This document shows, piece after piece, positions 1 to 26,530 of a stretch of 26,530 nucleotides of DNA. Below the pieces are notes generated by a model. The model saw only the letters and a program-made list of their open reading frames with translations, ran no database searches and had not been told where the DNA came from. Numbering within the stretch: the stretch's first letter is position 1; each line of letters opens with the position of its first letter. The stretch is from Physcia stellaris (taxonomy: Eukaryota > Ascomycota > Lecanoromycetes > Caliciales > Physciaceae), in NCBI GenBank assembly GCA_018902385.1, contig JABSSW010000106.1:1-26530 (forward strand). Direction: 5' to 3'. A program made the position numbers and the translations under genes.

Positions 1-584
1 AACGTCGTCAAAATGAAAAAAATGATGCACGTTTCGAACGTGTTAAAGTTTCGTCGTCAAATTTAAAAATTGATCGTTGCGTTACGACGTCAAAGAAAAA
101 CGTTCGATCGTTCGATGTCATGATATCGATAAAAATGAAAATTAAAAATTTCGTAAAACATGATTTTCGAAATGAAAATTGAAAAAAACGATGAATTTTT
201 TTTGTTGAAAATTAAAAATTCGACGTTGAACGTTATTTGCTTTTATGAATCATGTTACGAAAAATCAATATTATGAAAAACGATTTCATCGTGTTCGCGT
301 TACATGCGACGATACGAAAAAAAAATCAATCGATTGTTTTTGATTGCATTGATTCATGATTTATTCGTATTTTAAATCAAATTTCACAAAACGAAACAAA
401 AATACGAAAGTTTGAATAATAAATACGATTTTTTTCATTTTCGAAAATCTCAAAAGAAAAAACGACAATAACAACAACAATAACATAAAAAAACAACAAA
501 AATTCGATTTTTCGCGTGAAATCATTCTGTATGAATCGTACAAAATTCGACAAATATTTTTTTTTTTAAATGATTCATATTATG
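1..584. other. No recognisable gene; flank downstream of gypsy-1
   Basis: This stretch lies beyond the 3' end of the minus-strand gypsy-1 pol relic. Open frames on both strands are short, very rich in F, K, I and N, and show no motif I recognise. A 3' untranslated region and LTR of gypsy-1 would be expected here, but I could not find by eye a matching direct repeat on the far side of the element (5401-6900), so no LTR is called. Confidence 0.5.
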
Positions 585-784
585 TCATCGTTTTCAAAAA
601 ATTCATTTTTCGAAAATGACATATAATTTTCATTCGAATTTTTTTTTTCAACATTTCGAATTTTGCGCGATTTGTCACGTTTTTTTTTCGATGTTACGAT
701 TTTTTTCGCAACGACGACAATGACATCAAATTGTTTTTTTGTTTTGAACGAACGTTCGCGATTTTTAAACATACGTCAATTTTT

Positions 785-1620
785 TTTCATTTTTTCGTTC
801 ACATTGATCAATTTCATTTTGTATCATTGATCAAATATTTATTAAACGACTTTTCAAATGATTTGAACACATAAATATTCAAAATTTCATTGCGTACGAT
901 TTCGTAAAAATCATATCAATCGATTTCGAATTTTTTTGATTTTTTGATTCGTATCAATATTTTGTCGTTTTCGTGAAAAGTTTTTTTTTTTTTTTCGCAT
1001 TTCAAATTGTTTTGTTTTTTTTGACACGTTGCATGATTTTTTTGAATGTTTTTGCGCGTTCACGATTCAAAAATGAAATCGAATTTATTTTTTCGTTATA
1101 CAAATCAAAAGTTGATTCATCGACATCGTCAAACAAAATCGAATTAACTTCATAAAAAATAAAAAATGAAAAGTCAATCGTCGTATGCGTTCGAATTCGC
1201 GTGACGAACAAAATTTGATTCAAATAAATATTTCAATTTTTGATGAAATTTTCAATGCAATATTTGATCAACATATGATTCAAAACGTCATTGAAACGTT
1301 TCATTGTTTCGTTCGTTTTTGAATGATAAAAAATAATATTTTTATGTTTAATTTCAAGCAACGCAAATGTTTTGATCATAACAAATGTTCACAAATTGAC
1401 ATCACGATCAATGATGATTTTTTTCGAAATTTCATAATCACGATAAATATCATTGATCACGAAATTCGCAAAAATTTCGAAAATTGTTTCAAAAATAACG
1501 CGTGCGACGAATCATTTGATCGCATAATCGATAACAATCACGATTCATTTGTTTTCATTGATTGTGATAAATAATGATTCGATCAAATCGAAATTTTAAC
1601 GTTCAAATAATTGATTTTTA
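785..1620 (-). pseudogene. pol: gypsy-1 integrase relic
   Basis: The catalytic core is readable in one minus-strand frame. IVIVIDYAIK then TGA then FVARVI is the first Asp block (ID.ATKW..A). IINDIYRDYEI leads into IIIDRDVNL, the second Asp block (TDRG..F/L). KTNETMKRFND is the third-acid block, where the catalytic Glu is now Lys, consistent with GTG-GAA becoming ATG-AAA. The C-terminal part includes NQILFVTRIRTHTTIDFSFF and the SH3-like segment WYDFYEIVRN at about 900-930. Integrase inserts the cDNA into the genome. The frame stays largely open beyond 785 toward 585, which may be the C-terminal tail. Confidence 0.9.
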
Positions 1621-1959
1621 TCAAATCACGTTTCAAAAAAATGCATTACATTTTTTTTGACGTTTTTGAATTTGACGATCAATTGACATTTTGAACACGT
1701 TCGCACAAAATGTTTGATATTTTTGCGCATGTCGAATTATCATTGTTTGACTTTAATGATGTCAAACACGATCGTATTCGAGCAATGATCATAAATTTTG
1801 TAAACATGATTCAAATAGTTTGCACGAACTCAAAATTCGATGTAAAAAATTCAATTGTCAACGAGAAAATCTCGATGATGCGATACATTATCGTCGTTCA
1901 ATTTGAATTGATTTTCATATTTTTTCAACTTCGCATTTCATTTTATTTCATTTGACAAA

Positions 1960-2612
1960 ATTTCATCGCGCGCATAAATTATCATCGCTTCGTCGAAAAT
2001 GATGATACGCAAATTTATTTGCAAAAATCGCAAACGATAATCGTTTTTTCGATTCAAAATATCGAACACAATCATTTTAAATTTCGATTTATATTTGATG
2101 TTTAAACGATATTTTTCGAATTTCGCGAATCAACGAATCAAACGACTCGATGATTTTATCGTATTTTTCAAATGTTGCAATTCGACGTGATTCGTACGCA
2201 TCAAAATTGTCGTTTCATTTTTCACGTAACATTTTCATTTTCGCAAACTTTTTTTGATGATCAAAAATTCACGTTCGTGAATCGCATAATTACGTTCGAC
2301 GAAAAAAAACGTTTTGCTTTCGAAAACAATAAAATGTTTTTTGTCATCGAAATTTATTTGATAAAACATCGTTTTTCATTCGAAATTCGAAACATCGATT
2401 TCAATAATAAACGACAAAAATATATCAAATTGCGTCAATACACGATCATTACACATGACGTTTTTGATAATCGTAAAAACGTTTTTGATCGAAAATATCA
2501 TAAACATCGATTTATATTTGCGATTTTCAATTTTTTGAATAAATTCATAAAATGATTCAATGATAATGACGAAATTCTTTATGAATTTTCGATAATAAAC
2601 ACAAAAATTCAA
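1960..2612 (-). pseudogene. pol: gypsy-1 RNase H relic
   Basis: Downstream of RT on the minus strand, the open stretch 2376-2612 reads YYRKFIKNF (the conserved RT-connection pattern YYRRFI.NFS) and ends in FIIEIDVSNFE, which matches the RNase H opening F..E/T-D-A-S-x-x-[GA]. The reading continues past a TGA as YQINFDDKKHFIVFESKTFF, matching the following beta strands (Y Q . . . . . . H P I . F . S K . L). RNase H removes RNA from the RNA/DNA hybrid during reverse transcription. The C-terminal limit toward integrase is not resolved. Confidence 0.8.
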
Positions 2613-2654
2613 AAAAAAACGAACATCGTGTATCGTTTGAAACGACGATCAATT

Positions 2655-3667
2655 TTAAATAATTTTCAATTTGATTTCGTTCATGCGCATTTCATCGTTG
2701 TCAACGATATGTTCACAAAATTTTATTTGTTGTTGAAAAAAAAAACATTTCGACGATTTCGCATAATAATCATGTTTATGAAAAATTTCAATCACGAATT
2801 TTATATGCTCGAAATGTTTTTCGTCGTTTTTGAAATAAATCAATATGTCGTTCAAATAAACGATCACAAATTTGTTCAAATACGATTTCAACATATCGTT
2901 CATGATTGTTTGAAAATCGCAAAAACATTAATCAACTCGAAAAATATAACGCAAAATTCGTATTTGTTTCGTCTAATATTGAATGTTGTTTTGTGACGAT
3001 TTTTTTCGATCACATTGATTTGTCAATAATCATTAATTAAATCAATTTTGTTAAAATTTTTCGCTGTTTCGATCATGTTTAAACAATCTTGAATTTTCGA
3101 CAATGAATAATCGTTCTTTTGCGTCATCGCGTTGAGAATTCTATAATTTATACACATACGTCAAATGTCATTTTTTTTTTTGACAAAGAAAATTGACGTT
3201 TTTCATGACGATGTGCTTGATCGTATTAAATTTTTTTTCGTTAAATAGTCGATTTGAATAATTTGTTCGTTCAGCTGTTTTTTAGAAAAATCGTACGAAA
3301 ACTTGTTTATTGATTTAGCGTTTTCAATATCAATGCGATGATTTTGCGATCGTTTCGAAAATGATTGATTCGAAAAATCGTTTCGAAAAACGTTTTTCAA
3401 CACGTCGAAATTCAAAACTTTGTTCAATCTCGCGTGATCGATAATGTGTTGAATGAAAACAAATTTTTCAAAAAATTTGACGATTTCTTGATCAATAATA
3501 CGAACAACGTACAGATAAATTTGAGCGTTTTTTCGTATCAATCGTTCGAAAACACGTTTATTTACAATTTGAATTTCAAATGATTGATTTTCGAGAATTT
3601 GCAAACGAGAATTATGATTTTTCATGTTCGCAAACAGAAATTTTTGATTTTCGTTTGTTACACGCAT
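2655..3667 (-). pseudogene. pol: gypsy-1 reverse transcriptase relic
   Basis: The minus strand carries the ordered RT landmarks of Ty3/gypsy elements. The upstream linker reads SKKQLNEQIIQIDYLTKKNL. Next comes FVKKKNDI, a TGA, then RMCINYRILNAMT, which matches the family pattern FVKKKDGTWRMC(I/V)DYR. Last is the catalytic block YLNDILIYFKNDEKHFEHI at about 2802-2858. The family catalytic box is YxDD; here its first Asp is Asn. The change is explained by GG to GA at TTG-GAC, that is, C followed by C on the other strand. The TGA at the expected tryptophan and the loss of glycine fit the same rule. Non-functional. Confidence 0.9.
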
Positions 3668-4110
3668 ATCGAGCGTATTGTAATCAAAAATTAAACGATA
3701 TTTTTATCAAAAGTTCTCGTTTAAAATCAAATCGTTATTCATATTAAGAATCAAACAATCAATGATCGTATGAAATTCATTTTTTTTTCAATTAAACTTA
3801 ATGAAATCAACGACGTCAACAATTTTATCATTTTTCAATTGCATTTTGTCAGAAAAATGTTGTAATTTCAATTTCAACAAATCGACAATGCGTTGAACAA
3901 TGAAACAATGAAAAATATTCGAATTTGCAAATACAGCAACGCGACGTTTTTTTTTTGCGTTTACATCGAAACGTAATCACGTTTTCGACATACGTTTATT
4001 GACATTCAAATTGATTAAATATATCAATTCGTCGTTCGATCGTACTTTTGAAATGTACGAATTCTTTTCACGAATTTCAAAATTTCAAGATTTCGACGTT
4101 TTTATATTTG
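3650..4110 (-). pseudogene. pol: gypsy-1 aspartic protease relic
   Basis: Between the gag zinc knuckle and RT, the minus strand reads through a retropepsin-like stretch. The C-terminal part is the clearest: NDLILNENF followed by a TGA where tryptophan is expected, then RLIFDYNTLDMRV, which I read as the family pattern 'D-L-I-L-G-x-[DP]-[FW]-W ... D-Y-x-x-L'. Upstream hydrophobic strands fit the protease fold. The active-site D-[ST]-G triad cannot be located with confidence, because glycine codons are erased. In intact elements this domain processes the gag-pol polyprotein. The call rests on position and on the C-terminal motif. Confidence 0.55.
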
Positions 4111-4287
4111 ACATTTTCGAAATCGTGATTGTAATAAACGAAATCTGTTCATTTTCAATTATCAAATCGTTTTTTTTGCAAATTTTGAACGATTCATCGC
4201 GATCATCGTGCAATTCATGCGACGACGATTTCAAACGTTTTTCGAATTTTTGTTTTTGTCACGATTTTTATCGTCTCGACGAAATCG

Positions 4288-5400
4288 TCAATCAAACGAA
4301 TCATTTTCAAACACGATGAAATTCGAACAAATTGAAAACAAATGATTCGTTTGATCACAATTGTAACACTTTTTCGCGAAAACATTCATAACGTTTAAAT
4401 TTTTTTGTTGTTTATTGTTTTGAGCGACAAGAATTTGTGTTGATTGATTCGTCGTTGAAATTGTTCGAAAAACACGAAAGACATATTTTTCGACGTTGAC
4501 ATTTTCGTGTTTCGAAACATTCGTCATCATGTTGTGCAAATTCATATTCGAATACATTTGATTTTGATTGAGAATGTAATTTCGAATATCGATTTTGAAT
4601 TCGTCACGATATTTTTTTTTGATCGCAAATTCAATAACGTGTTCGCGAATGTTTTCGTATATCGACGTGAACTTGTTGTTGTAATCGACGATTTTGTTGT
4701 ATGCGTCAAATTGAATGATTTCGTTGTATATTTTGAAAAATTTCTGTTGTCAATCGTGCTCGTTTCAACGAATGAAAAAATATTTTTTGAATTCGAATCA
4801 TTTGTCATCAAATTTTTGCAAATAAACAAACAAAAAAATAAATCATTCGACAATTTTGTTCTCGAAATATTGTTCGATGACGATGAAAACGTTGATTTTG
4901 TTGATTAAATATGAATTGAACACATGAAATTTCTCGTGCTTGAATAAAAAGTTCTTAATTTCAACATGATTACGTTTACGTTTTTGAAAAACTGAAAAAC
5001 GACGATCGATAATTTAATCATTGAAAATGATTTGCGTTTCAATTTGCGCGTCAAACAGAATAAAATCAAACAAATGATCGTCGTCGTTAAAATCAACGAT
5101 GTTCGCAAAAAATTGATTGTGATTCATGAATAAATTGTTTCGTGATGTACGTTCACGATCGCGACGAAATTGATCATTTAATTGAACGACGACATCATTT
5201 TCGACGACGACATTATTTTCGACGAAATCGACGTTTTTTTCGTTCGAATTTTCGAAAATATCGTCAACGATTTTATCGAATTGATTATCGAATTTTGCGA
5301 TCGAATTTGTTGAATTTGAAAATTCGAAAACATTCGTACGCGAATGAAAATCATTTGAACGATCACGACGAAATTTTAAATTATCATTTTGAATAAACAT
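4288..5400 (-). pseudogene. gag: gypsy-1 gag relic with CCHC zinc knuckle
   Basis: Gag would form the capsid-like particle that packages element RNA. The diagnostic part is at 4327-4368 on the minus strand, where CYNCDQTNHLFSIC gives the exact retroviral spacing C-x2-C-x4-H-x4-C, here near the end of an 89-codon open stretch (4288-4557). Further upstream on the same strand, 5014-5400 is open for 128 codons and rich in N, D and R, and probably represents the N-terminal gag region; 4542-5108 joins the two through frame changes. The protease and RT of the same element follow directly, which supports the assignment. Only the knuckle is certain; the N-terminal limit is a guess. Confidence 0.7.
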
Positions 5401-8644: not shown

Positions 8645-9361
8645 TTGATCATGAAAAAATTAAATGAAATCATTAACAACGTCAAAAAAAACTTAATTCA
8701 AGCGAAATTCGATTTCGATATGAATTCAAAAAAAACGTTTAAAATTATAAAAACAATCGTAAAAAAATTGAAACGTAAAATTTTTGATTTTTTTAAACGA
8801 TTCGAAAACGTATTTAATTTCAAAAAAATCAATAAATTATTTTTTCACAAATTATACGATCACAAAATCGAATTAATTGAAAAATCGATTTAATTGTTTC
8901 GAAATCGAATTTATTTTTTATCGTTTAAAAAATTCGAAATTTTACAAAAATATTTTTATGAAAATTTTCAAAAAAAATTTATCAATTCAAACAAAACATT
9001 TTATATTTCGTTTATTTTATTCGTTGTCAAATCAAACGATCAATTTCGTTTGTGTGTAAATTATCGAAAATTGAACGTTATAATCAAACGCAATAATTAT
9101 TTTATTTCATTAATCGAGAAAATTTTCGTTAAAATTATCGATTGTAAATTTTGTTCAAATTAAACATCATATCGATTTTCAACAAATTTCGAATGAATTC
9201 ACAAAACGAAAATTTTACAATTTTTATATGTTTATTGAACATTTACAAATATCACGTATTGTCATTCGAATTAATCAATGATTCGATCAATTAACAACAT
9301 TATATGAACGATTTGTTATTCGAATACATCAATTATTTTTGTCAAATGTATTTGAACGATA
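8645..9361 (+). pseudogene. pol: gypsy-2 reverse transcriptase, N-terminal part (split by insertion)
   Basis: The frame 8645-8893 ends KLYDHKIELIEKSI, the RT entry motif (H.I.L..G..P). The next frame (8894-9163) reads FEILQKYFYENFQKKFINSN, then LCVNYRKLNVIIKRNNYFIS, matching 'L..Y..E.L..GFI..S..P..SP..FV.K..G..R.CVDYR.LN..T..N.YP.P'. After a frame change come a degraded DII/FNEFRMN block and QMYLNDI, the YxDD catalytic box with its first Asp changed to Asn. The relic stops dead after that Ile at 9361, and the continuation FIYNKIRKKHERH is found only at 11812, so an insertion of about 2450 bases interrupts the gene. Confidence 0.9.
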
Positions 9362-9419
9362 TAAAACACAATCTATAAAAAAAAATATTTCGTTTTCTTT
9401 TTCAAAAACTTATTATTTT

Positions 9420-9573
9420 ATCAGATTAAATCAATCTTGACGAAAAACATCAAAACTTTCGTGCAATTATTGCACATTTTGCACATCAATCATATATTTC
9501 ATATGATTTTTACTTAGTTATTTGAAATTGTAAAACTTTTTGAGAAAAATTCAACGCTGTAACAATCATTAGA
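9420..9573 (+). repeat. Dispersed repeat copy A (Helitron 5' subterminal region)
   Basis: The block around CGTGCAATTATTGCACATTT followed by GCACATCAATCA and later AAATTGTAAAAC recurs with about the same spacing at 11300-11462 (copy B) and 21660-21790 (copy C). Copies A and C both lie just inside elements that share their first ~25 bases, so this is best read as Helitron 5' subterminal sequence. It keeps more CT and AG than the surrounding gypsy relic. Confidence 0.6.
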
Positions 9574-9718
9574 TTTGAATGTGTGCGCATTGAATTATCA
9601 AAACGTGAAAATTTGATCGCATACAAATTGATGAATTCAAAATTCAATAATTCAAAACATCAACACGTCAAAACATCAATTTCATATCAATTCAATTATT
9701 TGCACATTTTAACATATC

Positions 9719-10207
9719 ATGCAATTCACGTTGAATTTAAATTTTTTTATCACGACGTATTCGCGTAATGCAACAAATCGTCACGCGAAAAAACGAAAAA
9801 AAAAACGTCAACGTCAAACATCAATTTTTAAAATCAAGTTTGTTTTTGTTTTTGTTATCGTTTTTGTTTTTATTTTTATTTTTGCATCGATCGAAATAAA
9901 CGCTTTTTACGAATATCATTCAATGATTGTTAAATTTCAAACATTAACGAAATTTCGAAAATCTCATTACACGATCAACGATCGAAATGAAATGATATTG
10001 AATAAAAAAAAATTTGAAATATATTCGATCATACAGTCAATTATCATTCAGAATTCAATGATTCGAGCACGTTTTATGTTTGACGTTGCATTCGATGTTT
10101 CGAAAATAAATAAACACACGCGTTTTCAAGTGAAATCACAGCAAAAACTGTTACAAAAAAATCAAAAATTTGAAAAAATCAAATCTTTCAGTATTGATGA
10201 CAATTGA
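9719..10207 (+). pseudogene. Unrecognised 162-codon open frame inside the candidate Helitron
   Basis: The product is unknown. An N-terminal basic stretch (RHAKKRKKKRQRQ, about residues 22-34) is followed by a strongly hydrophobic run of about 15-20 residues (KFVFVFVIVFVFIFIFASIE) that could look like a membrane helix. That run is encoded by a degenerate TTTGTT-type repeat, so it may be an artefact of base composition. The rest is charged and helical, with no P, G or W. It may be a captured gene fragment, as Helitrons often carry, or a chance open frame; I cannot tell which. Confidence 0.2.
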
Positions 10208-10876
10208 AACGAGCTGAAATCATAAAAATCAATGAAAAATTATTTTCGAAGTTGAAATATCGTTTAACGCGTTCTTTAAATGTTTTGTTGAAAAATCATT
10301 GTCGTTTTCAAATTTGAATAAAACGTTCTGTATGAAGTGAATACGCTCATTGCAAATGAAAAAAGCATTTTTTTTTTTATCGTTGTTCGAATCAACGATG
10401 AGAAGAAAATTCGTTTGCATATGAAAAAAAAAAATCAAACATAACAATCGTTTTTTTTTTAAATCGTTGACGAAATACGTTTGCAATGCAATGCAAAAAA
10501 AAAAATGAAAATTTGATTTTTCACACAATATTTCAACTTTTCAAAAAATTCAATTTGCAAAGAATATCAAACGAATCAAAAAAACGAACGAAAAAATAAA
10601 TGCGAAAACAACAAAAAAAAAAACATTCAATTTGATCAAACGAATCGAATGATTTTGATGAGTCGAACGATACATATATGACAAACGAATCGATCGATTT
10701 TGACACATGTTTTGACGACGACGAAAAATGCAATGAAACGAATTGATTGAATTAAAAATCGAAACAAACGAGCACAAATGAAAACAAAAAAAAAAACTTT
10801 ACTCGATTGCAAATATGTCATGATCGATTTAATTTTCACGAATTGTTTTTTTCAAATCGAATCGATTTTCATCAAA
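10208..10876. other. Interior of the candidate Helitron, no recognised gene
   Basis: Overlapping open frames occur on the minus strand (10229-10528, 10533-10839) and shorter ones on the plus strand. None shows a family motif. The S/F/R/I-rich minus frames overlap in several registers, which suggests chance openness. Scattered CAAACGAATCGA-like words recur at 10565-10700 without forming a regular array. Confidence 0.35.
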
Positions 10877-10984
10877 TGTTTTATCAATTGTTTTATCAAA
10901 TGTTTTATCAAATGTTTCAACAAATGTTTCAACAAATGTTTTAACAAATGTTTCATCGAATGTTTCATCGAATGTTTTCATGCG
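10877..10984 (+). repeat. 12-bp tandem repeat, about nine units
   Basis: Units of the form TGTTTYAWCRAA follow each other from 10877: two or three TGTTTTATCAAA-type, two TGTTTCAACAAA, one TGTTTTAACAAA, two TGTTTCATCGAA, and a final variant TGTTTTCATGCG. Because 12 is a multiple of three, the plus frame reads as tetrapeptides CFIK, CFNK and CFIE. Adjacent units share the same variants, the usual sign of tandem duplication. Confidence 0.85.
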
Positions 10985-11046
10985 CGAATCATTTTCGCAA
11001 ACATACATCGATGCAAAGATTGCAAATTTGAACTTTTTGAATTTTA
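10978..11046. repeat. 60-bp segment shared with the interior of E2
   Basis: TTTTCGCA..CATACATCGATGCAAA, then TGCAAATT, then TTTTTGA and TTTTAATAA occur here and at 20018-20080 inside E2 with only a few changes and single-base indels. In one plus frame it reads IHRCKDCKFELFEF, a C-x2-C pattern, but the frame differs in the second copy. Confidence 0.6.
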
Positions 11047-11299
11047 ATAAGTCGAAAAATCTCGTTGAAGAAACAAATTCGATTTGTATGACATAATTTC
11101 GATATTTTCGTAATATATGATCAAATCAATTTACATAATATTCAAAATGATCGATATCAAAACAAATACATTCTGATATTCTATTGCGTTATATTCAATC
11201 GAAAATCATGATATGTTTCGAAAATGTGATCAAATGATTGCAATTGACATTGAGATTTTTCGAATTATGAATTTCAAATTTGCGACATTTTTTTTCAAT

Positions 11300-11462
11300 T
11301 TGATTAATTCAAAGTCTGTTTGACGTTCAATCATCGAACTTTTTGCGTCGTACAGTTGTTTCGCATTTTGCATTTCAATCAAAAATCACATATGATTTTC
11401 ACTCATTTAGTCACAATTGTAAAATAAAATGAGCGCAATTCAATGTTGCAAAAATAACAAAA
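11300..11462 (+). repeat. Dispersed repeat copy B
   Basis: Homologous to copy A by eye: GATTAATTCAAAG..., then CGTACAGTTGTTTCGCATTT, TGCATTTCAATCA, CACATATGATTTTCACT, and CAATTGTAAAATAAAATGAG. It lies inside the same element as copy A, 1.88 kb downstream. The element may therefore be a composite of two Helitron copies, or may have a duplicated subterminal region. No second copy of the TARAACACAAT end was found upstream of it. Confidence 0.55.
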
Positions 11463-11770
11463 ATCGATTCATTATCGCAATAGTTTTGAAATTTGAAAAA
11501 TCATGTTAAACATGTGTTTGTAAAACAATTTCGCAACAACGTTTGCGAAACAACAATGTCATATTCATCATAACTCAATGCGCACTCGTTCGATTTTCGA
11601 TATTTTTGATTTTTTGAATAGTGCTCACTTCGTGCTTCAGAACAAGTCTTCGATTGTATGATTTATTTATTGAATTAAAAAGTTATTAAGATGCGAAATC
11701 GATGAGATCGCAAGAAATTCGATGCGAAAATTTCATAATCTTATCAGATTTGATTTTAATTTTTAAAATT

Positions 11771-11803
11771 CTCGACAAAGTTTTTTTTAAAAAAACTTTC
11801 GAG
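11771..11803 (+). other. Hairpin near the right end of the candidate Helitron
   Basis: The arms are CTCGA-CA-AAGTTTTTTT and AAAAAAACTT-TCGAG, a stem of about 14 pairs with a two-base bulge and almost no loop. It ends 8 bases before gypsy-2 RT resumes. Helitrons carry a palindrome of this kind about 10-12 bases from their 3' end, where it serves as a transposition terminator. The retained CT and AG in the stem are notable in a region where these are rare. Confidence 0.55.
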
Positions 11804-11811
11804 TCTATTTG

Positions 11812-12250
11812 TTTTCATTTATAATAAAATTCGAAAAAAACACGAACGACATTTCATTCAAATATTTCAAAAATTAAAAAAAATCGAATTTCAAATCGAT
11901 ATTAAAAAATGCGAATTTTTTAAAACGAAAATTTCATTTTTAAAAATTATATTATCAACGAAAAACTTACGCATGAATTTTAAAAAAATACAAAATATTG
12001 TCGATTGAATTCGTTCAACGTGTATCAAAAAAATGCAAACATTTATAAATTTTTGCAATTTTTATCGACGTTTTATCAAAACATTTTCGAAATTCGTCAA
12101 ATTTTTGATTCGAATAATTAAAAAAAAATCGATTTCGAATGAATCGATTTCGTTAACGAAACGTTCGAAATTTTGAAAAAACAAATAATCGAAATTTCAA
12201 TTTTTCGACATTACGATCGCAATCGTAAAACAATTTTAAAAACAAATTTT
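11812..12250 (+). pseudogene. pol: gypsy-2 reverse transcriptase, C-terminal part
   Basis: The frame resumes with FIYNKIRKKHERHFIQIFQK, the segment that directly follows YLDDI in Ty3/gypsy RTs (LIYS.T..EH..H...V). It continues as IDIKKCEFFKTKISFL (thumb entry, 'K.EF....I.FLG..I'). Next is QTFINFCNFYRRFIKTFSKF at 12036-12095, matching the connection motif 'FLGF.NFYRRFI..FS..A'. All expected glycines are replaced. This block is the other half of the RT that stops at 9361. Confidence 0.9.
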
Positions 12251-12259
12251 TCGAATTAA

Positions 12260-12640
12260 TGTTTAAATGAAATTTTATCACAATACGACGACGAAAAAAT
12301 TTTTCATTCGATTGTTTTTTTCAATAAAAAAATGATTTTCGTCGAATGCAATTACGAAATATACGATAAAAAATTTTTAATTATTATTCGATATTTGAAA
12401 TATTGAAAATTCGAATTTGAAAATATCAATAAATTCGTCGAAATTTACATTAATCATAAAAATTTGAAAATTTTCATAACAAACAAAAAATTCATTTTTC
12501 GTCAAATACGTTAAATCGAAATTTTGATCGATTACAATATCAAAATTCAATATCAATTCGAAATCAAAAATGTTAAAACGAACGTTTTGATTTGATTGTT
12601 TGAATTTCGTTTTGTCGATAACGACGAACGAAAATTTTAT
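12260..12640 (+). pseudogene. pol: gypsy-2 RNase H relic
   Basis: From 12283 one frame runs, with only TGA at tryptophan positions and one TAA, through [47 protein letters not shown] and VKTNVLI. These match the RNase H series 'H.(V/I).(F/Y).S.K', 'NYEI.DKELLAI', 'V.TDHKNL.YF' and 'ADALSR'. Two catalytic acids are replaced (DKE to DKK and TDH to INH), each by G-to-A after a purine. The block follows RT directly and precedes the integrase zinc finger. Confidence 0.9.
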
Positions 12641-12919
12641 AAAAAACAAATTTTGTTATCGTTTTTTAAATTGCAATTATGTTCGATTGACGTTCAAAAC
12701 GATTTGTACGAACGAATCATGCAAATTAATCGAAAAAATGAAAATTGTATTAATTATCGTCAAATTTTGATCGATAAATAAATCATCAATGACGAAATAA
12801 ATTTGCAAAAATGTTTCGATCGAAATGACATTTTTTTTCAAAAACGAAAATTTATGAATATCAAATCATTTAAATTTCATGATTGAAATAATTCGCGATA
12901 CGTACGATCAATTTTTTTG
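12641..12919 (+). pseudogene. pol: gypsy-2 RNase H-integrase linker
   Basis: The frame stays open from 12596 to 12781 and reads ILLSFFKLQLCSIDVQNDLY, INRKNENCINYRQ and similar. This fits the variable linker between the RNase H domain and the integrase zinc finger of gypsy elements ('..L.P..L...' then '.D.L.Y....I.VP'). There is no catalytic motif in this part. Confidence 0.6.
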
Positions 12920-13500
12920 TATTCATTTAAACATGAATCGCATTGAAAAATTCATTAAACGTTATTATTATTGATTTAATATGCGATTATTTATTAAACG
13001 TTATATTCGTAATTGTCACAAATGTTAACGATTTAAATTTTCACACGATAATCGTTATAAATTGTTAACATTATTGTCAATATTTAATCAACGATAAATA
13101 AATATTTCGATAAATTTCATAATCGAATTATTTGAATTCAAAAAAAACAACGTTATTTGTATTATTATCGATCGATTAATCAAAAAACGACATTATGTTT
13201 TTTGCGTAATCGATGATGACGAATTGACAATCGAAATTTGCGTTAAAATATTGTTTCATTACGTATTTCGCACGCATGATTTATTTTTTTTAATCGTTTC
13301 GAATCGAAATGATCAATTTATGAATCGCGTTTGAAAAATTTTTGTAAACGTTTAAAAATCAAATGTAAATTGTTCACGATATTTCAATTTCAAATCAATA
13401 ATCAAATCGAACGAATTAATCAAAACATTGAAATTCGTTTACGTTTGTATTGCAATTATCGTCAAAACGATTAAATTGATTGAATCGATATCATGAAATT
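12920..13500 (+). pseudogene. pol: gypsy-2 integrase: zinc finger and catalytic core
   Basis: The H2C2 finger region reads RIEKFIKRYYY, a TGA at the expected tryptophan, FNMRLFIKRYIRNCHKC (family pattern 'H.G...T...I...YYWP.M...I..Y...C..C'). The core follows with NISINFIIELFE (first Asp now Asn), ICIIIDRLIKKRHYVFC, RTHDLFFLIVSNRNDQF (second block, SDRD.QF, Asp now Asn) and KSIIKSNELIKTL for the third-acid block. Several TGA stops fall at conserved tryptophans. Confidence 0.88.
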
Positions 13501-13930
13501 CGTTAACAACAATGACGTTTTCGCAATTATCGAATTCATTTTTTTTTTCATCAATAAAAATTATCATTTTCGAATGATTTTTGATTCAAATTTGAATAAT
13601 TACGAAATTATTAAAAAACGTTTATTAATCAAACAAAACGAATTTATTGTCGAAAAAATGAATCGTATTATCGAATAAATCAAAATTAACGTTGTCGATG
13701 TTAAACAAAAAATAATTGTTCGAATCAACAAATTTCGTTTTTTTATCAATTTTGAAATAAAAAATTATGTGTGATTAAATCGTCGTCACATCAAAACGAT
13801 TCGTTTATTTGATAAATTGAATGACAAAAAATTAAATTTATATTTCGTTGTCAAAAAACGAAATATTGTTTACGAATTCGAATTGTTCGATGATATACAC
13901 ATTCATTCAATTTTTCATTTTTGATTGTTA
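13501..13930 (+). pseudogene. pol: gypsy-2 integrase C-terminal domain
   Basis: Directly after the core, one frame (13493-13678) reads EFIFFFINKNYHFRMIFD and MNRIIE, matching 'EFAYNNS.......SPF....G..P'. The next part reads RRHIKTIRLFDKLNDKKLNL then YFVVKKRNIVYEFELFDDIH, then HSIFHF. That is the SH3-like domain of chromoviral integrases ('V.L....I.T.RPS.KLD.K..GP..I....G...Y.L.LP....IHPVFHVS'). It leads straight into the chromodomain. Confidence 0.88.
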
Positions 13931-13979
13931 AAAAAATTCAATGATTTATTAAAAAAACAACACAACGATTTTTCGAAAT

Positions 13980-14182
13980 TCGTTATTGCAAATGAAACGT
14001 TCGAATGAAAATTCGACGACATATTGCAATTTCGATATTATTATTATCGTTTTCAATATCGTTGTAAATGATCGAATTAAAATTTTCACGATCGCATTTG
14101 ATATTATGTCGACGACGATAAATTTCAAAATGTTCAAAATATCGTCGATGTTTTTCACGAAATTAATTCAAAAACAACGAAA
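13980..14182 (+). pseudogene. gypsy-2 chromodomain relic
   Basis: At the C terminus of the integrase, the frame reads DDILQFRYYYYRFQYRCK, then TGA at the expected tryptophan, further broken codons and a TGA before YYVDDDKFQNVQNIVDVFHE. This matches the chromodomain pattern 'V..IL..R.....QYLVKW.GY....TWE...NL.N....I..F'. Chromodomains of fungal chromoviruses bind methylated histone H3 and direct insertion to heterochromatin, which would suit the crowding of elements here (inference). The gene is cut 4-5 codons later by the LTR element E1. Confidence 0.8.
14178..14182. repeat. Target-site duplication of E1, left copy
   Basis: CGAAA lies immediately before the TGTT terminus of the left LTR and again immediately after the AACA terminus of the right LTR at 17223-17227. 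Five bases is the usual duplication length for LTR retroelements. The duplicated bases are part of the gypsy-2 relic. Confidence 0.75.
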
Positions 14183-14351
14183 TGTTGTTTTGCATGATAG
14201 TCGATATTCATTAAACGAGAATTTTAAAACTAAAAAGAAAGTATGTACAGATGAAAATCGAAATGTCTGATGTAAAACTTGCGAATGTCAAAATTCTAAT
14301 CACGTGTTTCTTTTAACTTTGCGACAATGTCTTCGAAACACGCTCGTAACA
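14183..14351 (-). repeat. E1 LTR, left (3' LTR in element orientation)
   Basis: It aligns with 17044-17222 over almost its whole length. From TGCATGATAGTCGATATTCA to CTCGTAACA about ten substitutions can be counted, all transitions in CpC/CpT or ApG/GpG context, plus one gap of about 8 bases. The first few bases (TGTTGTTTTG against TATTACAGTCGTG) align poorly. Confidence 0.85.
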
Positions 14352-14368
14352 CTATTTTTTTTTCTCTC
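14352..14368 (-). other. Polypurine tract of E1
   Basis: Read on the minus strand this is GAGAGAAAAAAAAATAG, directly followed by the LTR start TGTTACGAG. In LTR retroelements the polypurine tract primes plus-strand DNA synthesis and sits immediately upstream of the 3' LTR, so it fixes the orientation of E1 as minus. Confidence 0.65.
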
Positions 14369-14457
14369 ACAAATTTCGTCTCGAAGCGACTATCTCTCTC
14401 ATATTTCTCTCATCGATCGGCGATTTCAAGAATATCGTTGATTGAAACGTAAATAAT

Positions 14458-16976
14458 TCAATGAATCATTGCGAAAGTTGAAATGATCGAAACAAATGCA
14501 ACAAACGTGATTTGAAGACGAAAATCGAAAGAACGGCGAAAACGTGAGCGGAAATCTAGATCGAAATCATGCGAATGAGAATTTTGATTGCAAAAATGAG
14601 AATTTTGATTGCAACGAGATGTAAAAAAATCTGACTTTTGTATGACGAAAAGATCGATTTCTTTGACAAATAGATCAATAAGACAAAGCGACAAAGCGAA
14701 AACGATTTCGCAAACATAAATTGCTGAAAATTCTTCGAATTCGAGCTTTTCAAACTCTGACTAATCGATGTCTTTTGATTGACTGCAAACAGAAAATATG
14801 CGATGATTCGTGACTGATAGAGAATGTCAAAGTTTCGTGAAAAAAAACGACGTTTTTGATGTTGCGACAAATCAAATGATTTCGACTTCTCAACAAACAT
14901 GCGATGAAAATCATGAATTGTAAAATAGAACTTCGAAATCGATTTTCGAAACCTTGATGAAAATGTTGCGAACGAAATTGACGAACAAGTTGTTGATGCA
15001 ATCTTCGCACGCTTTGATGTTGATTTCGATATAAGTGATGCAATTGTTGCAAAAATGACGAACGAAATAAATGAATTTCTCAGTCGTTCTGAGAGTGTAA
15101 TTGATCTAAAAATCGAAAATTTTGAAATTGTTTTTGATGAGATTGTTGTTGAAATTGTTGATGAGATTGTTGATAAAAAAGTTGTTTTTGATGAAATGAT
15201 TGATGAAATTGTTGATGAGATTGTTGATGAGATTGTTGAGATTTTATCTTTTTTTATTGAAGTTTCGTTTCGAAGCGTTAACTATTTTCTTCGCATGATG
15301 TTGACGAATGTGCTCGTGCAACTTGTTTTTGACTCGAAAATTTTCTCGCAATGTTTGCAAACGATCTTTTGACAGATAACATTTTGAGTATGTTGCAAAA
15401 GTCGAATCAATGACGAAAAGAACGCGAAACAATTGAGACAAAAATGATATTGTGACGAAGAATGCGACGCAGACGAAACAGAAAAAGAAATCTGAATCGA
15501 CGATTTCGCAGAAAATTTCTTTGAAAATGCAATGATCAAAGCTTCTAATCACTCGCTTAGTTTTTTTTTGACGATTTCGATTTCGAGTTTGCTTTGTTGT
15601 TTGTATCAGATTAATGCAAAATCACGAAAACAATCGAATAACAAAGTCAACACATTTGACTCGCGATATTGATGTTGACATTGTCGAAGTCGTTGCACAA
15701 AATTCGCGATCTCGCAAAACAGACTGAATTTCTGAATATCACACAGAAGAATTGCATCGAAAAAATCAATATTTGCAGCAACTGAAATGAGTTTCGCGAT
15801 CTCGACTATAGTTTTTGAAGTTTTCTTTTCGAGTTGTAAGGCGAGAGAAAGCATTCAGATGATTTTCGAAAATGATATTTTAACGATTGTTTTTCGCGAT
15901 CAACGTCAAATAGTTCTATCGAACAATGAATACATTGTGTTTTGTAACAAATATCAATGTCATTGAATTCAGCGACGATCAAAACATTCTTTGAATCAAC
16001 ATTACGTCATTTGTTTAGACTCGTTAGTCTGTCTTCGTATGTGTTCAAAAACTTGACGAGCAGAGCGAAAACAGAAAAAAGTTCAATTTTCGACTTTTCA
16101 ACAACGTTTTTTTCAGCGATTTTCAATTCGATCTTCTGTTGAAGTTGTTGAGCGAACGAGCAGTGTGATGCGTTTCGAAAATGCTTTTTCAACGACTTGA
16201 AAGTGTAGTATTTCGTATATAGTCTCAAGAAGCAAGTCAAACATTCGATGACATTCGAATTTGTTGAATTGCTCTTTTCTGAAAAGTCAACGACGATCAT
16301 GATTGTTTTGAAGTGAAAACGACGTGTTGCGCTGAGATAAGATCGAATGATTAACAGATTCGCTAATCGTTTTTCGTATGTGAATAACGACTTCAACGAA
16401 AGAGAAATCGAAGTCGTATCATCTGTAAAAGTCGCGAAAATAAAGGCTTTCATAATGACGAAGCGAAATCGAAATCGAAATCGAATTGAGAAGTCTTTTG
16501 AACGCAAAAAGAAAAAAAACGCGTCGATTTAACGTGCGAACGCGTATCTTTTCGTCAAATATTTCGAATTGTAATGAAGATGCGATGCGAAACAAATAAA
16601 TAAAAAAATGTGATGTTGACGAACGAATCGAAAAATTGTTTCGGACGAAGTTGAAGAGAACGCGTTAATTTGATTTGCAAACGCGTATATTACAGAATCT
16701 TTCTCGAACTGTAATGAATAGAATACTTTTGCAATCGTTGAAAAAGTTGTCGAGTAAATAGTAGATGTTTTTGACTCGTGCAATTATCGAAGAGATATGT
16801 CGAGCAAATGAAGAAAAGACGATCAATGAAATTGTACGATCTGCTGAATAAAATCGTACTGACGTAGCAGTTGATTTTGCAATTGATAGATCAAATATTT
16901 GAATCTTGATTGATTGATTTCGATAGCATCGTTGATTGATGATTAAATTCAATTCTTGTTGTTTTCTTTCGATCAC
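14458..16976 (-). pseudogene. E1 gag-like protein with C2H2-type zinc fingers (relic)
   Basis: The minus strand reads through a protein in several frames. 16665-16976 and 16529-16783 are S/T-rich and may be the disordered N terminus. At 16160-16243 is IECLTCF...LKKHFRNASHC, a C-x2-C-x16-H-x5-H-C finger. 15606-15854 contains RLRQCQHQYRESNVLTLLFD, which resembles a gag capsid helix preceding 'LRG.A..W'. 15240-15442 holds two fingers: FCLNCFAFFSSLIRLLQHTQ (C-x2-C-x12-H-x5-C), and CKHCEKIFESK continued after a frameshift by KLHEHIRQHH (C2H2). A glutamine/histidine-rich repeat tail follows. I believe similar proteins are common in fungal repeat families, but that is memory. No polymerase is encoded. 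Confidence 0.6.
15136..15237 (-). repeat. 12-bp tandem repeat inside the E1 gene
   Basis: Units of GATGARATTGTT on the plus strand (15136, 15160, 15202, 15214, 15226, with variants between) form an irregular array. One minus-strand frame reads QQSH/QQFH tetrapeptides, which could derive from QQPH by C-to-T change; this suggests a Q/P/H-rich linker after the zinc fingers. The plus strand is open over it as DEIV repeats, but that frame is probably a shadow. Confidence 0.75.
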
Positions 16977-17043
16977 TGATGATTAAGCAGACGCATACAA
17001 CAAGTACACGTTTTCATTGAATAGAAATGAAATTTTAGAATAA

Positions 17044-17222
17044 TATTACAGTCGTGCATGATAGTCGATATTCATTAAACGAAAATTCTAAAACTAGAAA
17101 GAAAGTATGTACAAATGAAAATCGAAATGCTTGATGTAGAAATTTTCATTTTCGAATGTCAAGATCTTAATCACGTGTTTCTTTTAGCTTTGCGACAATG
17201 TCTTCGAAGCACGCTCGTAACA
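17044..17222 (-). repeat. E1 LTR, right (5' LTR in element orientation)
   Basis: This is the partner of 14183-14351. It starts TATTACAGTCGTGCATGATA and ends CTCGTAACA, followed at once by CGAAA. Where the two LTRs differ, sometimes one and sometimes the other keeps the ancestral C or G. At two places an inferred ancestral CCT became TCT in one LTR and CTT in the other (GTCTG against GCTTG; ATTCT against ATCTT), which is direct evidence of independent hits in the same CC dinucleotide. Confidence 0.85.
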
Positions 17223-17227
17223 CGAAA
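17223..17227. repeat. Target-site duplication of E1, right copy
   Basis: CGAAA directly after the right LTR, identical to 14178-14182. Beyond it the sequence (TTTGTTTTGCG...) would continue the 3' end of gypsy-2. Confidence 0.75.
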
Positions 17228-20790: not shown

Positions 20791-21029
20791 TAAAAAAATT
20801 TTAAAATTTTTTATCAATGTGATTGAAAACGTTGAATATATAACAAAATGTAAAAATTATCGTAAAATTGTTTAAAAAATTGTAAAAATTTGATATGATT
20901 TGCAAACATTATATATAATACGATTTTGTAATCGTAAATTGTTCGAAATCGTTTATTAAAATTTAAAATTCGTTGTGATTTGCGAATAAAATATAACGAA
21001 AAAACAAATCGATAAATGATATTATCAAT

Positions 21030-21507: not shown

Positions 21508-21659
21508 TAGAACACAATTTATAAAAAAAAATGTTCAATAAATTCGTTTGACGCGAATGATCGATCGAGAAAAAATTTTGATCAATTCTACGTTTGTATT
21601 TGTTAAATTCGATAACTTTCATCAATTGAAAATTCAAATTTTCAAAAAAATAATATATT

Positions 21660-21790
21660 ATTTTTGATTCGATTAATCATTAAAATCTTTGCGTTCGTGC
21701 AATTGTTACACACGTTGCATCGCAATCATTCAACGCGTACATTTTTTATTGTTTGAATTAAAATTGTAAAATTACTCATGCGTTTTTCAA
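21660..21790 (+). repeat. Dispersed repeat copy C (Helitron 5' subterminal region)
   Basis: TTTTTGATTCGATTAATC, then CGTGCAATTGTTACACACGT, TGCATCGCAATCATT and AAATTGTAAAATTACTCATG align with copies A and B. Relative to copy A the element has about 110 extra bases between its terminus and this block. Confidence 0.6.
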
Positions 21791-22600
21791 CGACGCGAAA
21801 ATCATGTAATTTGATTTTTTGATGATGATGTTATGATGTTTCGAACGTTGTCTTTTTGATTTTTTTTTTTCGATGATTTTGTCAAGCGTTTTGCAACAAC
21901 AAAGTTTCGCGTTTTCATTTTTACACGTTTTCATTTTTTTCGCATTACATTTTTCTGTTTTTATTTCGCAGCATGATTTCATTCGATCGTTCAATTTTCG
22001 CTTTCAATGAACATAATAATTGTCATGTCGTCAATGTTGCGAATCGCGTTCGTCAACAGCAATTTGCGATGTGAATGAATTTTTATGAAATCATCATTTT
22101 GTTTTTTCATTTTGCAAATTCAACGAAAACAACGTTTAAACGATTTTTTAACGATGTCATTAATATTGTTAACAATGATGTCACGTCGAAAAAACGACGA
22201 AAACGTTTTTTAAAATCAAAAAACGATCAACGAGTTTTTTCAGTCAACGTTTTCGCTTTTTACCAATTTATTTTTTTGAATTTGTTGTTGTACGTTTTCG
22301 TCAAGAAATTCGACGATTTGCGCGTTTCGCGAGTCGTGTTTTCTCATTTTTTCAATTTTTTTTCAAAAAAACGACGATCACGATTTCGACAATATTTTTT
22401 CATACGATCATACGCAAATTTCGTCGATCACGAATTAAATTAAAAATTTGAACATGTTTCGAATCACGATGATGAAAAAAAAAAAATCACGTTTGTTCAA
22501 TAAAAAAAAAAAACATACGCGAAAGAAATTGTCAAACAACGCGTTCGAATTCGAAAATTTGATTTCAAAAATCGACGTGACGACAAAAATTTGAATTTTG
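21791..22600 (+). other. Helitron leader and possible N terminus of its gene
   Basis: This stretch lies between the 5' subterminal repeat and the first certain Rep motif. A plus-strand frame is open at 22075-22443 (122 codons), with two basic patches (SKKRRKRF and SKKRRSRFRQ). It may encode the poorly conserved N-terminal region of RepHel. The cysteine-rich minus-strand frame at 21776-21994 is probably a shadow. No promoter element was identified. Confidence 0.4.
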
Positions 22601-24624
22601 ATTATATGATCGCTCGCAAAAAAAACGTAATATTTAATAAATATGTATTGTCGAAATTCGAAAAAAAAAAAAAACGTTTGTTTTTTTGTGATGTTTATCA
22701 ATACGTCGAAAAATGTCATCGAAAATTCATCGACGATAAATATTGACATTGTTGCGTCAACGACAAAATTTCATCGAACATGATGATTTTTGAAACAAAT
22801 TTTGATATTGTAACGAAATTGTTCGACGATTTCGAAAAAAACGTCGTTGTACAACGTGACGAAAATTTCAAATATTTCGATCATTTTTTATGACAAATGA
22901 AATTTACAAATGATTTCATTTTTCGCAAACGATTGATCAAACGATGCAAAAAATTTCAAAAATGATCATTATTTTCAACAACGTTTTGTCATTTATCAAT
23001 GAAAACGCGAAAATGAATGAATTACACAACGTTTGAATTATTTTTCGCATCATGAAATCGATTCATCACATGTTGAATGTTTTTTTTGTCGATTCAAATG
23101 ATCGTCGTCGTTTTTGTCAAATATATTCGTTCGATTTTTCGCAAAAAATTTTATTGAAACGTTTGATTCACGATGAACAATTGTTTGAAAAAAAATTTCA
23201 CGAATTACAAAATTTGATAATCAAATACAATTTATACGTTCAATCGTTCAAAAATTGTGATGATCGTTTGAAAAATGACGATTTTGAAATCAAAATCGTT
23301 TTGAAACAACATGATTTCAAACGAATGTTAAAAAATACGCACAACAAATTCATTTTCGAAAAAATTGTTATTATTTTGAGCGTTTTCGAAATGTTCGATT
23401 CGAATAAATCAATCGAAAAAATATTGTGATGTAAATTTACGATGATGATTTCATTCGAATGTTTTATTGACATTTTTGTTACATGACGTTTCGATATTTT
23501 TTTTGTTTTTTTGCGAAAAATAAAATTGAATGTTTATTATTTTTTTCGATCACGAAAACAGTCGTGATTTTCGTGTTCGCAAAATTTTTTCGATGCAATT
23601 TCTCGATCGATTCAAAAACATGATCAGAAATTCAATGATGACGAGAACGAAAAATTTGCACGTGATCAAAACGAGAAAAACGACGACAACGATGTTCGAA
23701 TTGAAAAAAAAATCGAAACGAATGATTCAAAAAAATTTTATTCGTACATCATTCAAATACGTCGTTTTTTGCATTTTTCGCATCGAAATACGATTTTTAT
23801 TTCGATTAATTTTTTTTTTTTACGTAAATTTTGTCAAATGTTTCGTTTTTTGCATATTTGATCGAAAAAAAAATACGAAAATTATTTTTTTATTAATAGA
23901 ATTTTTCATTCGTCAAATCGTGAAATTTTCAATGATAATGAATTGTTATTCGTGTTTTGAATTTCAACAACGTATTTTTGACACGATTTAACGCGTTGTT
24001 GAAATTTTCATCACGATGTAAATTTTGCATACGTTTAGCGAATCGATCGATTGATGCAAAAAAATACGATGAATTTGTTGTTTTTCTGTTGCGCGAAATC
24101 AATGTATTAATATAAAAATTTCGTTTTTTTATTTTCGTCAATGTATTCGTGTCAAAATCACGTTTTTTTGATGTTATATATACAAAATCGCAAAAGAAAA
24201 TTCAATCGTGTGTTGCATTCGAAACGATTGTTTCAACATTTTTTGATGAATGCGTTTGTTTGCGTGAAATTCAATAATTTCAATTTCGTTCGTTTTAATC
24301 AGCAATTTTTGCGAGTTGAATTTTATCGAAATTTGATGAATCGATTGAATCAAAATTATGAATTCAATGATATTGATCAAAAAATGACGATATTGTCGTC
24401 AAATCATACGAGATTTTTTCGATACATAAAAATTCAAAAAGCAAAACGCTTTCGCTTTGATTCGAAAATTCAATAAATTTATTTTTTCATCATTTTCATT
24501 TGCAATTCACGTTGAAAAAATTCGAACGAAATTTTTTTTTAAACGTTGATATCGTCAATCGTTTCGACTTGATAACTAAAATGTTTCAATTGAAATTCAA
24601 AAATTTTTGCGCGATTTTATCGAA

Positions 24625-24720
24625 CATTATGTCATGAAAATAATAAACGCGCACATTTATGTTATCGAATTTCAAAAAAAAAAATTTGTCACACGTTCAT
24701 ATTTTGTTCATTGCAAATTT
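24625..24720 (+). other. HUH motif region of the Helitron Rep domain
   Basis: NAHIYVIEFQK in one frame and LSHVHILFIANF in the next align with the Rep pattern 'H.Y.(I/V)EFQKRGLPHAHIL'. The His-hydrophobic-His triad (HVH, 24692-24700), which holds the catalytic metal in HUH nucleases, is intact. A single-base frameshift lies in the A run just upstream. P to S, and the loss of G and R codons as A runs, follow the CpY rule. Confidence 0.8.
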
Positions 24721-25040
24721 TCGAAATGAATTCGATGAAAATAACATTGATAACGTCGTTCATGCAATTATATTTTTCAAAAAATATTTGAATTCAACGC
24801 GATACGCAAAATTTTTTACGAATTAATTGTTGATCAAATGATTCATTTAAAAATTAAAAAAAATCAAAAAATTTTTTTGTTATGATTTCGAAAGTAAATG
24901 CATCAAATGATTTTTCAAAAAGAAATCGATAATGACGAATTTGTGTCATCATTCGAATTTTTCGCGATATCGTCGTTTTCGTGTAAATTTGTCGAAAAAA
25001 ATATTGAAACAACAAATGAATGATTTTTTACAATTTTTGA

Positions 25041-25253
25041 TTGTTGCAAAAGTATGAAATTTATATCAACGTTGAAATTTGCATCAATGCGAAATTCGTG
25101 AAATATTTGTACAAATATTTTTTCAAAAAAAACGATCACGTCGATGTATTTTTCAATATTATTACAATTCGTCGAGTTAATAAATTTCATGCGAATCGTC
25201 AAAACAACGATGAATTCGTTGACGAGATTAAAATATTTCATGACACGCGTTGA
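25041..25253 (+). other. Tyrosine motif region of the Helitron Rep domain
   Basis: The open stretch reads INVEICINAKFVKYLYKYFF followed by KKNDHVDV, then DEIKIFHDTR. This matches the conserved Helitron segment 'N.EVC.....VKYL.KY..KG.D...........DEI..Y...R'. The KYLYKY tyrosines are retained (25101-25121). In active elements a tyrosine here forms the covalent link to DNA. Confidence 0.85.
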
Positions 25254-26530
25254 ATAGAATTTTGTAAAATCGTTTAACGAATATTTGATTTTTTTTCGAC
25301 GAAATCAAATTCGCGATTACTCGATTTCAATTGCATTTGAAAAATCGAAATCGAATAATCATTAATTCAAACGATAAAAAAATTTCAAATCAATTGATTG
25401 AAAACGAGAATTTTCGCACGATTCAATTAATCGAATATTTCGAACTCAATCGCAAAATTCACGAAATCGAACGCAATAATGAATTTTTTTTTTTGTTATT
25501 CGCAAAAAAATCGCGATATCGTTGTGAATTCACGAAATCATTTTTATCAAAATATTCTCGAATTTTTTGTATGAAACAAAATCAAAAAATTTGAACGATA
25601 CGAAAAATGAACAAATGCGTAAATCGAACGTATTTCATTAATTTCAAATCAAACGATGTTTTTTATTTACGTTTGTTGCTCGTCAATCGAAAAAAAATTT
25701 AATTTTTTTTGACGATTTAAAATCGTGAATGTGCAAATTGAAAAACGTTTGATGAAAAATCGTTTTTCAATTTTTGAATTATAAACAAATTTGCGTTCAA
25801 TTCGAATTAATTAACGACAATGACGAATAAAATGCAATCATGATCGAAATTATCGAATTCGATATTGCGACGATGTTGAAAAAATTATTCGTAACGATTT
25901 TGATCGAATGTGATTTTGCGAAATTTTTGAAATTGTGAATGAAACACAAAAAAATGTAAAACAATTTTGATTTTTTTTCAAATTTTGAAATGTTCGAAAT
26001 GAATTTGAATATACAAAAATTTTGTATAATAATGTTGAATTTTTTAAATTTTTCATTAATCGAAATTGAAATGACACGTGCACATTTTCGAATGTTTTTT
26101 GATTTTTGTTTCGATTTTTATTTTTTGCGATCGCATTTTCGATTTTCGTGCATTTTCATTAATTTTATCGCAAATTTTTTTTCGATTGCAAAAACATAAT
26201 AATTCGCGATTATTTTTTATTGCAAAAATTTATTTTGAAAAATTTTATTGAAATCGATTTGAATGCGTTGCACGATCAAAAAATCAATTGACGTTATTTT
26301 TGTTGTCAAATTTGTTAAATAAAATCGTTGACGACGAAATTTCAAATTTTTTTCATTATAATTTGTTCGAATTTTTTATTGATTTCGATCAATACGTTCA
26401 AGTCAAAAATCGTTTGATTCGCGAAAAACGACATTGATTGATTTTTCAATTTTCGTCGTCGCGAATTAAAACAAATTTAATGCAAATCAATTGCATGCGA
26501 TCAATACAATCGTCAAAACAATCAAAAAAA

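Follow-up and report, generated by a model that had tools for sequence, protein, structure and literature searches.

What kind of process can strip a stretch of fungal DNA of nearly every CC and GG and leave CA, TG and CG abundant? This question is raised by contig JABSSW010000106.1 (C106) of the lichen fungus Physcia stellaris (Lecanoromycetes, Caliciales, Physciaceae), one of 147 contigs in an assembly of 43.97 Mb (GCA_018902385.1). The window analysed here is this whole contig (positions 1 to 26,530, GC content 26%), and throughout its length it is repeat DNA depleted in CpC and CpT, irrespective of strand. Only three CC and six GG remain (observed/expected 0.01), and CT and AG are reduced to 219 and 256 occurrences (0.17 and 0.20). 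CA (1571) and TG (1547) both stand at 1.22 times expectation, CG (1642) at 3.67 times and TA (1541) at 0.42. This count confirms what an initial annotation of the window had read from the letters, namely the near absence of CC and GG, the depletion of AG and CT and the abundance of CA, TG and CG. Loss of C before a pyrimidine (CpY) is equal on both strands over the full window; the leftover CpC and CpT lie mostly at about 14.0-17.2 kb, with fewer at 3-5 and 9.5-12 kb and none at 12-14 kb. The bias is due neither to chance nor to host-wide composition.

We consider it very probable that P. stellaris runs a repeat-directed defence of the repeat-induced point mutation (RIP) type with the target order CpC > CpT >> CpA, CpG. 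The evidence is the DNA of one strain, and its core is a comparison of copies of a long terminal repeat (LTR) element of about 3 kb, which occupies 14,183-17,222 of the window and has 50 matches in the genome. Among these, nine mutated copies were compared with two unmutated ones (on C48, L028, and on C36, L029) at sites where both references agree; L027, whose main match spans only 702 bp, was omitted from the alignment. Both references have a GC content of 0.53 and normal CpC, though they are flanked by mutated DNA. The changes run from C to T, at 2220 of 2472 CpC sites (90%), 1544 of 2187 CpT sites (71%), 265 of 2263 CpA sites (12%) and 184 of 2192 CpG sites (8%); changes of T to C (2.9%) and of A to G (3.7%) are low. 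With either reference alone the ranking stays as it is, CpC ahead of CpT and CpT ahead of the rest. These alignments agree with the earlier proposal of a C-to-T change before a pyrimidine on either strand, which affects repeats, leaves gene-bearing DNA alone and hardly touches CpA or CpG; a dominance of CpA or CpG changes, which would have spoken against it, is not what the copies contain. They also refine it, since CpC proves to be the better target of the two, ahead of CpT, and CpA is slightly in excess over CpG. A motif at the 5' or +2 position was sought in the copy alignment and none was clear, GCT being slightly low (0.64 vs 0.72-0.73).

Counts within single copies tell the same. The window copy holds 7 CpC, 240 CpT, 391 CpA and 378 CpG; for the two unmutated references the figures are 367/392/389/358 and 364/395/401/374. 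About 98% of CpC is thus gone from the window copy, and neither CpA nor CpG is reduced. In the mutated copies, some of which are shorter, 0-8 CpC are left of about 365, and 36-240 CpT of about 393. From such counts we estimate that the rate of change at CpC exceeded that at CpT about eightfold in the window copy (with C48 as reference) and about fourfold in the C44 copy (L022). The CpT status of sites is weakly correlated between copies (phi -0.02 to 0.36), which indicates that the copies were largely hit separately.

When 99% of the CpC sites and 88% of the CpT sites of host DNA were changed, at rates of our own choosing, the GC content became 0.269 (window 0.260), and the 16 dinucleotide ratios correlated with those of the window at r 0.99. 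In a separate comparison of seven target sets, each changed at 95%, CpC plus CpT fitted the window (r 0.99, root-mean-square deviation 0.13). Poorer fits came from CpA, CpC and CpT together (r 0.86, deviation 2.35), CpA plus CpC (0.68) and CpA plus CpT (0.52), and r was zero or below for CpA alone, CpG alone and all four contexts. The initial annotation had judged neither classical CpA-directed RIP nor CpG deamination to fit, and the indices and copy counts bear this out. Under the classical RIP criteria (TpA/ApT at least 0.89, (CpA+TpG)/(ApC+GpT) at most 1.03), the window scores as unmutated, with 0.44 and 1.32; eight gene-bearing stretches give 0.61-0.70 and 1.22-1.36. Classical RIP of the Neurospora type is therefore rejected, the window copy keeping its CpA, and so is decay of methylated CpG, given the CpG excess in the window and the low C-to-T rate at CpG. 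Survey indices built on TpA/ApT and CpA consequently return a false negative on this DNA.

LTR pairs allow a check that needs no reference. A usable pair exists in nine of 11 elements, and the C/T differences within these pairs number 56 at CpT, 7 at CpC, 14 at CpA and 4 at CpG. The pair in the window differs at 14 of 161 aligned bases; 13 of these are C/T at CpT, and there are no C/T differences at CpA, CpG or CpC. In the nearly unmutated C36 copy, the pair shows seven differences at CpC and two at CpT. Both partial and complete stages of mutation thus occur, and the C42 copy (L061, C42:41600-44450) is a natural half-finished case in which CpC was hit first. Over its first 1.07 kb it is nearly intact, with changes at 20 of 125 CpC, 4 of 98 CpT, 1 of 90 CpA and 2 of 84 CpG; the other 1.78 kb, beyond the switch, is mutated at 111 of 126 CpC, 58 of 112 CpT, 14 of 133 CpA and 6 of 126 CpG. 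Within the light part the lead of CpC over CpT is significant (Fisher p 0.004), and CpA and CpG together account for 3 of 174. An unmutated copy on C26, used as a control, has no such CpC excess (C to T at CpC 19/299, CpT 20/261, CpA 7/275, CpG 14/259).

Hits also cluster by strand. Same-strand concordance exceeds the shuffled mean in all nine copies, and in L019, L021, L022 and L023 the excess amounts to at least about three standard deviations. Opposite-strand concordance lies below its shuffled mean in six copies, equals it in one and exceeds it in two (L024, L025). Same-strand clustering is described for Neurospora RIP as well, in the part of that study available to us (PMC7296669). Separately, at CpT sites all nine mutated copies carry more hits on the element's coding strand than on the other, for which the mechanism or a shared history could both account.

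The mutated state is confined to repeats and sharply bordered. According to the accessible part of the genome paper, the fungus was sequenced from an axenic ascospore culture with Nanopore and Illumina reads, giving 46.57 Mb in 184 scaffolds at 43.3% GC (PMC7513301), and that part makes no mention of RIP in Physcia; the assembly analysed here is smaller. Of nine 8-kb stretches, five were placed around named genes (L016-L018, L030, L031) and four arbitrarily (L032-L035). Eight (L016-L018, L030, L031, L033-L035) have GC contents of 0.49-0.51, and the base after C is A/C/G/T in shares of about 0.27/0.23/0.22/0.27; the ninth, the arbitrarily placed L032, is rich in AT, and its CpC share is 0.01. 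A lack of CC and GG in host genes would have refuted the first reading; the gene-bearing stretches are spared, and their normal shares rule out host-wide composition as the cause. Among 20 arbitrary 2-kb samples, four combine a GC content of 0.21-0.26 with a CpC share of 0.00, two have a mixed composition (GC 0.38 and 0.42) and the remaining 14 range over 0.46-0.55. At a finer scale, 453 windows of 500 bp were scored, many of them picked around element copies. None of the 221 with GC below 0.34 has a CpC share above 0.10 or a CpA share below 0.25. Loss of CpC is nearly all-or-none, as only 14 of the 453 hold CpC at 5-50% of the CpA/CpG mean. CpC is lost (< 0.05) with CpT kept (> 0.24) in five windows, and the converse, CpT lost (< 0.10) with CpC kept (> 0.08), occurs in none. 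Telomeric TTAGGG arrays, which are rich in CpC and CpT, are intact at the starts of C1, C69 and C72, at the end of C46 and at C77:147186-147249. A search for ribosomal DNA with a single pattern gave no match, and no related relics were found in viral contigs.

The same signature probably extends to other genomes. A search with a mutated pol piece yields 36 proteins, each with an ENA label, and 34 of them contain at most 0.5% proline and 0.9% glycine, the scarcity that CpY loss would be expected to leave in a protein; in the remaining two, the proline/glycine contents are 2.3/0.6% and 4.3/4.3%. This search favours matches poor in proline and glycine and provides evidence at the protein level. 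Two of the 36 (P0245 and P0250) find their best match in the Physcia genome at only 60% and 58% identity, from which we infer other genomes as their source. Such relics are already present in databases as pseudo-proteins nearly without proline and glycine.

Which machinery could act in this way? Near-identical repeat copies would be recognised, presumably through their homology, and C would then be converted to T on either strand wherever the next base is a pyrimidine. Change would begin at CpC and leave almost none of it, proceed at CpT at a rate several times lower, and barely affect CpA and CpG. The process would be expected to act in the sexual cycle and may be carried out by a RID-class cytosine methyltransferase, possibly together with a DIM-2-like enzyme, with altered recognition of the 3' base. 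The genome search for RID and DIM-2 homologues that the initial annotation had proposed was productive: three cytosine C5-methyltransferase genes are encoded, two of the RID class (class I, RID/Masc1-like) and one DIM-2-like, and judged by their sequences these are candidates for the chemistry. The long class I paralogue (932 amino acids) lies on contig C5 at 498.8-499.8 kb, the short one on C6 at 791 kb and the DIM-2-like gene on C3 at 340 kb. The best solved relative of the latter is 9bap_A/9baq_A (630 bits), which we take to be Neurospora DIM-2. PPC and EQT/EET motifs, in our assumption marks of class I, can be read in the methyltransferase sequences, and one of the enzymes is 99% identical to a protein named Physcia stellaris G7Y79_00005g016670. 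The two class I paralogues fall in separate clades of a tree of 51 rows (49 of 276 proteins and two of the Physcia genome), which was used only for this split, as P0017 and DIM-2 have very long branches. The specificity region of the long RID protein reads NHR and several relatives read NHD at this variable site, from which nothing was concluded. The genome also contains eight matches to the deaminase domain PF00383. In the best cytidine-deaminase-domain match (C64:178666-179121) there are four in-frame TGA codons, for which an intron or a mutated copy are both possible.

Several observations weigh against a RIP-type defence that is blind to CpA and triggered by homology. The C-to-T rate at CpA exceeds that at CpG (0.117 vs 0.084, p 3e-4), CpA per base is 1-12% lower in the nine mutated copies than in the unmutated ones with CpG not consistently lower, and the 14 CpA differences in LTR pairs, against four at CpG, come from five copies (L021, L022, L024, L025, L026). 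Weak activity on CpA or ageing may be responsible. Regarding homology, the unmutated C48 and C36 copies are 85% identical with gaps uncounted, and identity among unmutated fragments reaches 90% between L062 and L063 (641 bp) and 87% between L063 and L064 (663 bp). Either the threshold of identity or length is high, or these fragments escaped. The three fragments (on C46, C20 and C14) are each about 650 bp long and 85-90% mutually identical. The full-length unmutated copies on C48, C36 and C26 are mutually 78.7-81.4% identical by BLAST, which is compatible with an identity threshold; the search for unmutated copies scored the best 40 candidates.

Three other explanations have to be weighed against the RIP-type defence. 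The repeats might have decayed passively, through DIM-2-type methylation at CpC and CpT followed by slow deamination, with no active RIP involved. In favour of this, the genome has a DIM-2-like gene, and Neurospora DIM-2 is said to prefer CpT in the available part of a 2026 review (PMC13297926). Slow decay is nevertheless hard to reconcile with a window copy that has lost nearly all of its CpC at unchanged CpA and CpG counts, with T-to-C and A-to-G changes of only about 3-4% over nine copies and with the scarcity of intermediate windows. Near-total CpC loss with few other changes, the all-or-none spread, the sharp borders, the switch of state inside the C42 element and the same-strand clusters favour an active RIP-type process, and we regard passive decay as improbable.

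Even less probable is an enzyme outside the RID class, such as a single-strand cytosine deaminase of the AID/APOBEC kind. Same-strand clusters at CpT sites would suit such an enzyme, as would the PF00383 matches; the idea was judged by sequence context. AID/APOBEC enzymes read the 5' base, whereas the context here is set by the 3' base and hardly at all by the 5' one, and the genome does hold RID-class genes. Repeats can polish badly. An artefact, be it from converted DNA or from Nanopore miscalls where C is methylated in repeats, could be entertained for a Nanopore and Illumina assembly (PMC7513301); it is nonetheless extremely unlikely, as 34 of the 36 proteins matching the mutated pol piece share the near lack of proline and glycine (in ENA records whose sequencing method is not visible) and unmutated copies (L028, L029) sit embedded in mutated DNA. 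Copy-specific mosaics also misfit conversion, and conversion of one strand is rejected because both strands are changed on a single contig.

If the RIP-type defence is accepted, we speculate, with rather more doubt than confidence, that a lineage of lichen fungi carries a RID-class enzyme whose 3' recognition switched from adenine to pyrimidine, with CpC as the best target. Two enzymes might even share the work, with one class I paralogue responsible for the fast change at CpC and the second paralogue, or else the DIM-2-like enzyme, for the slow change at CpT, and the trait might be clade-wide and invisible to standard indices. What sets the target choice of RID becomes directly testable by swapping natural enzymes.

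The window itself is composed of nested LTR retrotransposons. An older Ty3/Gypsy relic on the minus strand (765-5013) is interrupted by TGA stops. It comprises a gag portion (4159-5013) with the knuckle CYNCDQTNHLFSIC, read by eye, a reverse transcriptase (2801-3703; RVT_1, E 5e-5, below the curated cut-off) and an RNase H (1737-2654; RT_RNaseH 1e-19 and RT_RNaseH_2 1e-15, above cut-off); no Pfam family matched 4159-5013 or 765-1595. A second Gypsy relic on the plus strand (8894-14080) retains the start of a reverse transcriptase (about 8894-9163, by eye), its end (11760-12188; RVT_1, E 0.0067) and an integrase-end SH3 piece (13679-14080; SH3_Tf2-1, E 2.5e-5), the latter two below the curated cut-offs. 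It is apparently interrupted at about 9.2-11.7 kb by a younger insert, as more CpY remains at 9.5-12 kb than at 12-14 kb. The 3-kb element used for the copy comparison (14183-17222, 3.04 kb, coding strand minus) is less mutated at CpT and is the youngest one visible. By-eye reading places its LTRs at 14183-14351 and 17044-17222 and a target-site duplication CGAAA at 14178-14182, repeated at 17223-17227; the empty insertion site is present in the C100 copy (L023), and in other copies the LTR reads, by eye, TGTTAC...GTAACA. The unmutated C48 copy encodes a protein with a BIR domain (inhibitor-of-apoptosis type; L028:3811-5634, E 4e-15), with relatives on C36 and C26, and a gag-like and C2H2-like part was read in it by eye. 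Rfam gave no match in the window, and a tRNA scan was uninformative. The longest frame on either strand measures 241 amino acids in the standard code, 499 with TGA read as tryptophan, 323 with TAA read and 360 with TAG read. By the genetic code, CpY mutation yields stops only from tryptophan (TGG to TGA), which lengthens relic frames under code 4 and sets a trap for gene finders.

Altogether, the system resembles classical CpA-directed RIP of Neurospora and Leptosphaeria in that C changes only to T, repeats alone are hit, genes are spared, an AT-rich compartment forms, hits cluster by strand and RID and DIM-2 homologues are present. It differs in its depletion of TpA, in leaving CpA nearly untouched and in having CpC as its best target, which RIP usually hits least. 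The published systems below are compared as far as the available portions of the cited papers extend. RIP with a CpT signature is described for Botrytis, Sclerotinia and Magnaporthe (PMC4352252), Anisogramma (PMC10998396), Colletotrichum truncatum (PMC6180176) and Neurospora Tad1 (PMC2621366), and CpT leads in some RIP-capable control fungi (PMC7882544). These fungi share the CpT target with Physcia, and in some families it leads there; they also lose CpA, whereas Physcia nearly spares it and prefers CpC to CpT. The repeats of Stagonospora are short of CpC itself as well as of CpA and CpG (PMC2621366), and in Monilinia CpC-to-TpT double changes accompany those at CpA (PMC8959702).

The CpG/TpCpG signature of the basidiomycetes Microbotryum (PMC4352252) and Rhizoctonia solani AG8 (PMC4014442) likewise involves C-to-T change outside CpA, but Physcia keeps its CpG, needs no 5' T and leaves genes unaffected. 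In Table 2 of the AG8 study, CpC changes form the densest class of SNPs, at one per 214 bp (CpG 370, CpA 422, CpT 491), but genes and repeats are hit alike and CpA is not spared (PMC4014442). No case of CpC hit first with CpA spared was found in the literature searched, which excluded preprints and most subscription papers. A common CpA preference of RIP-like defences is the conclusion of a 2025 kingdom-wide survey (PMC12543289), against which the Physcia genome sets a different preference, near saturation for CpC. RIP in another lichen fungus, Cladonia rangiformis, shares with the Physcia process the sharp borders, nested elements and RID and DIM-2 genes; its ripped DNA peaks at about 16% GC (PMC12542154), whereas by our calculation CpY-only mutation of DNA with 50% GC stops at about 26%.

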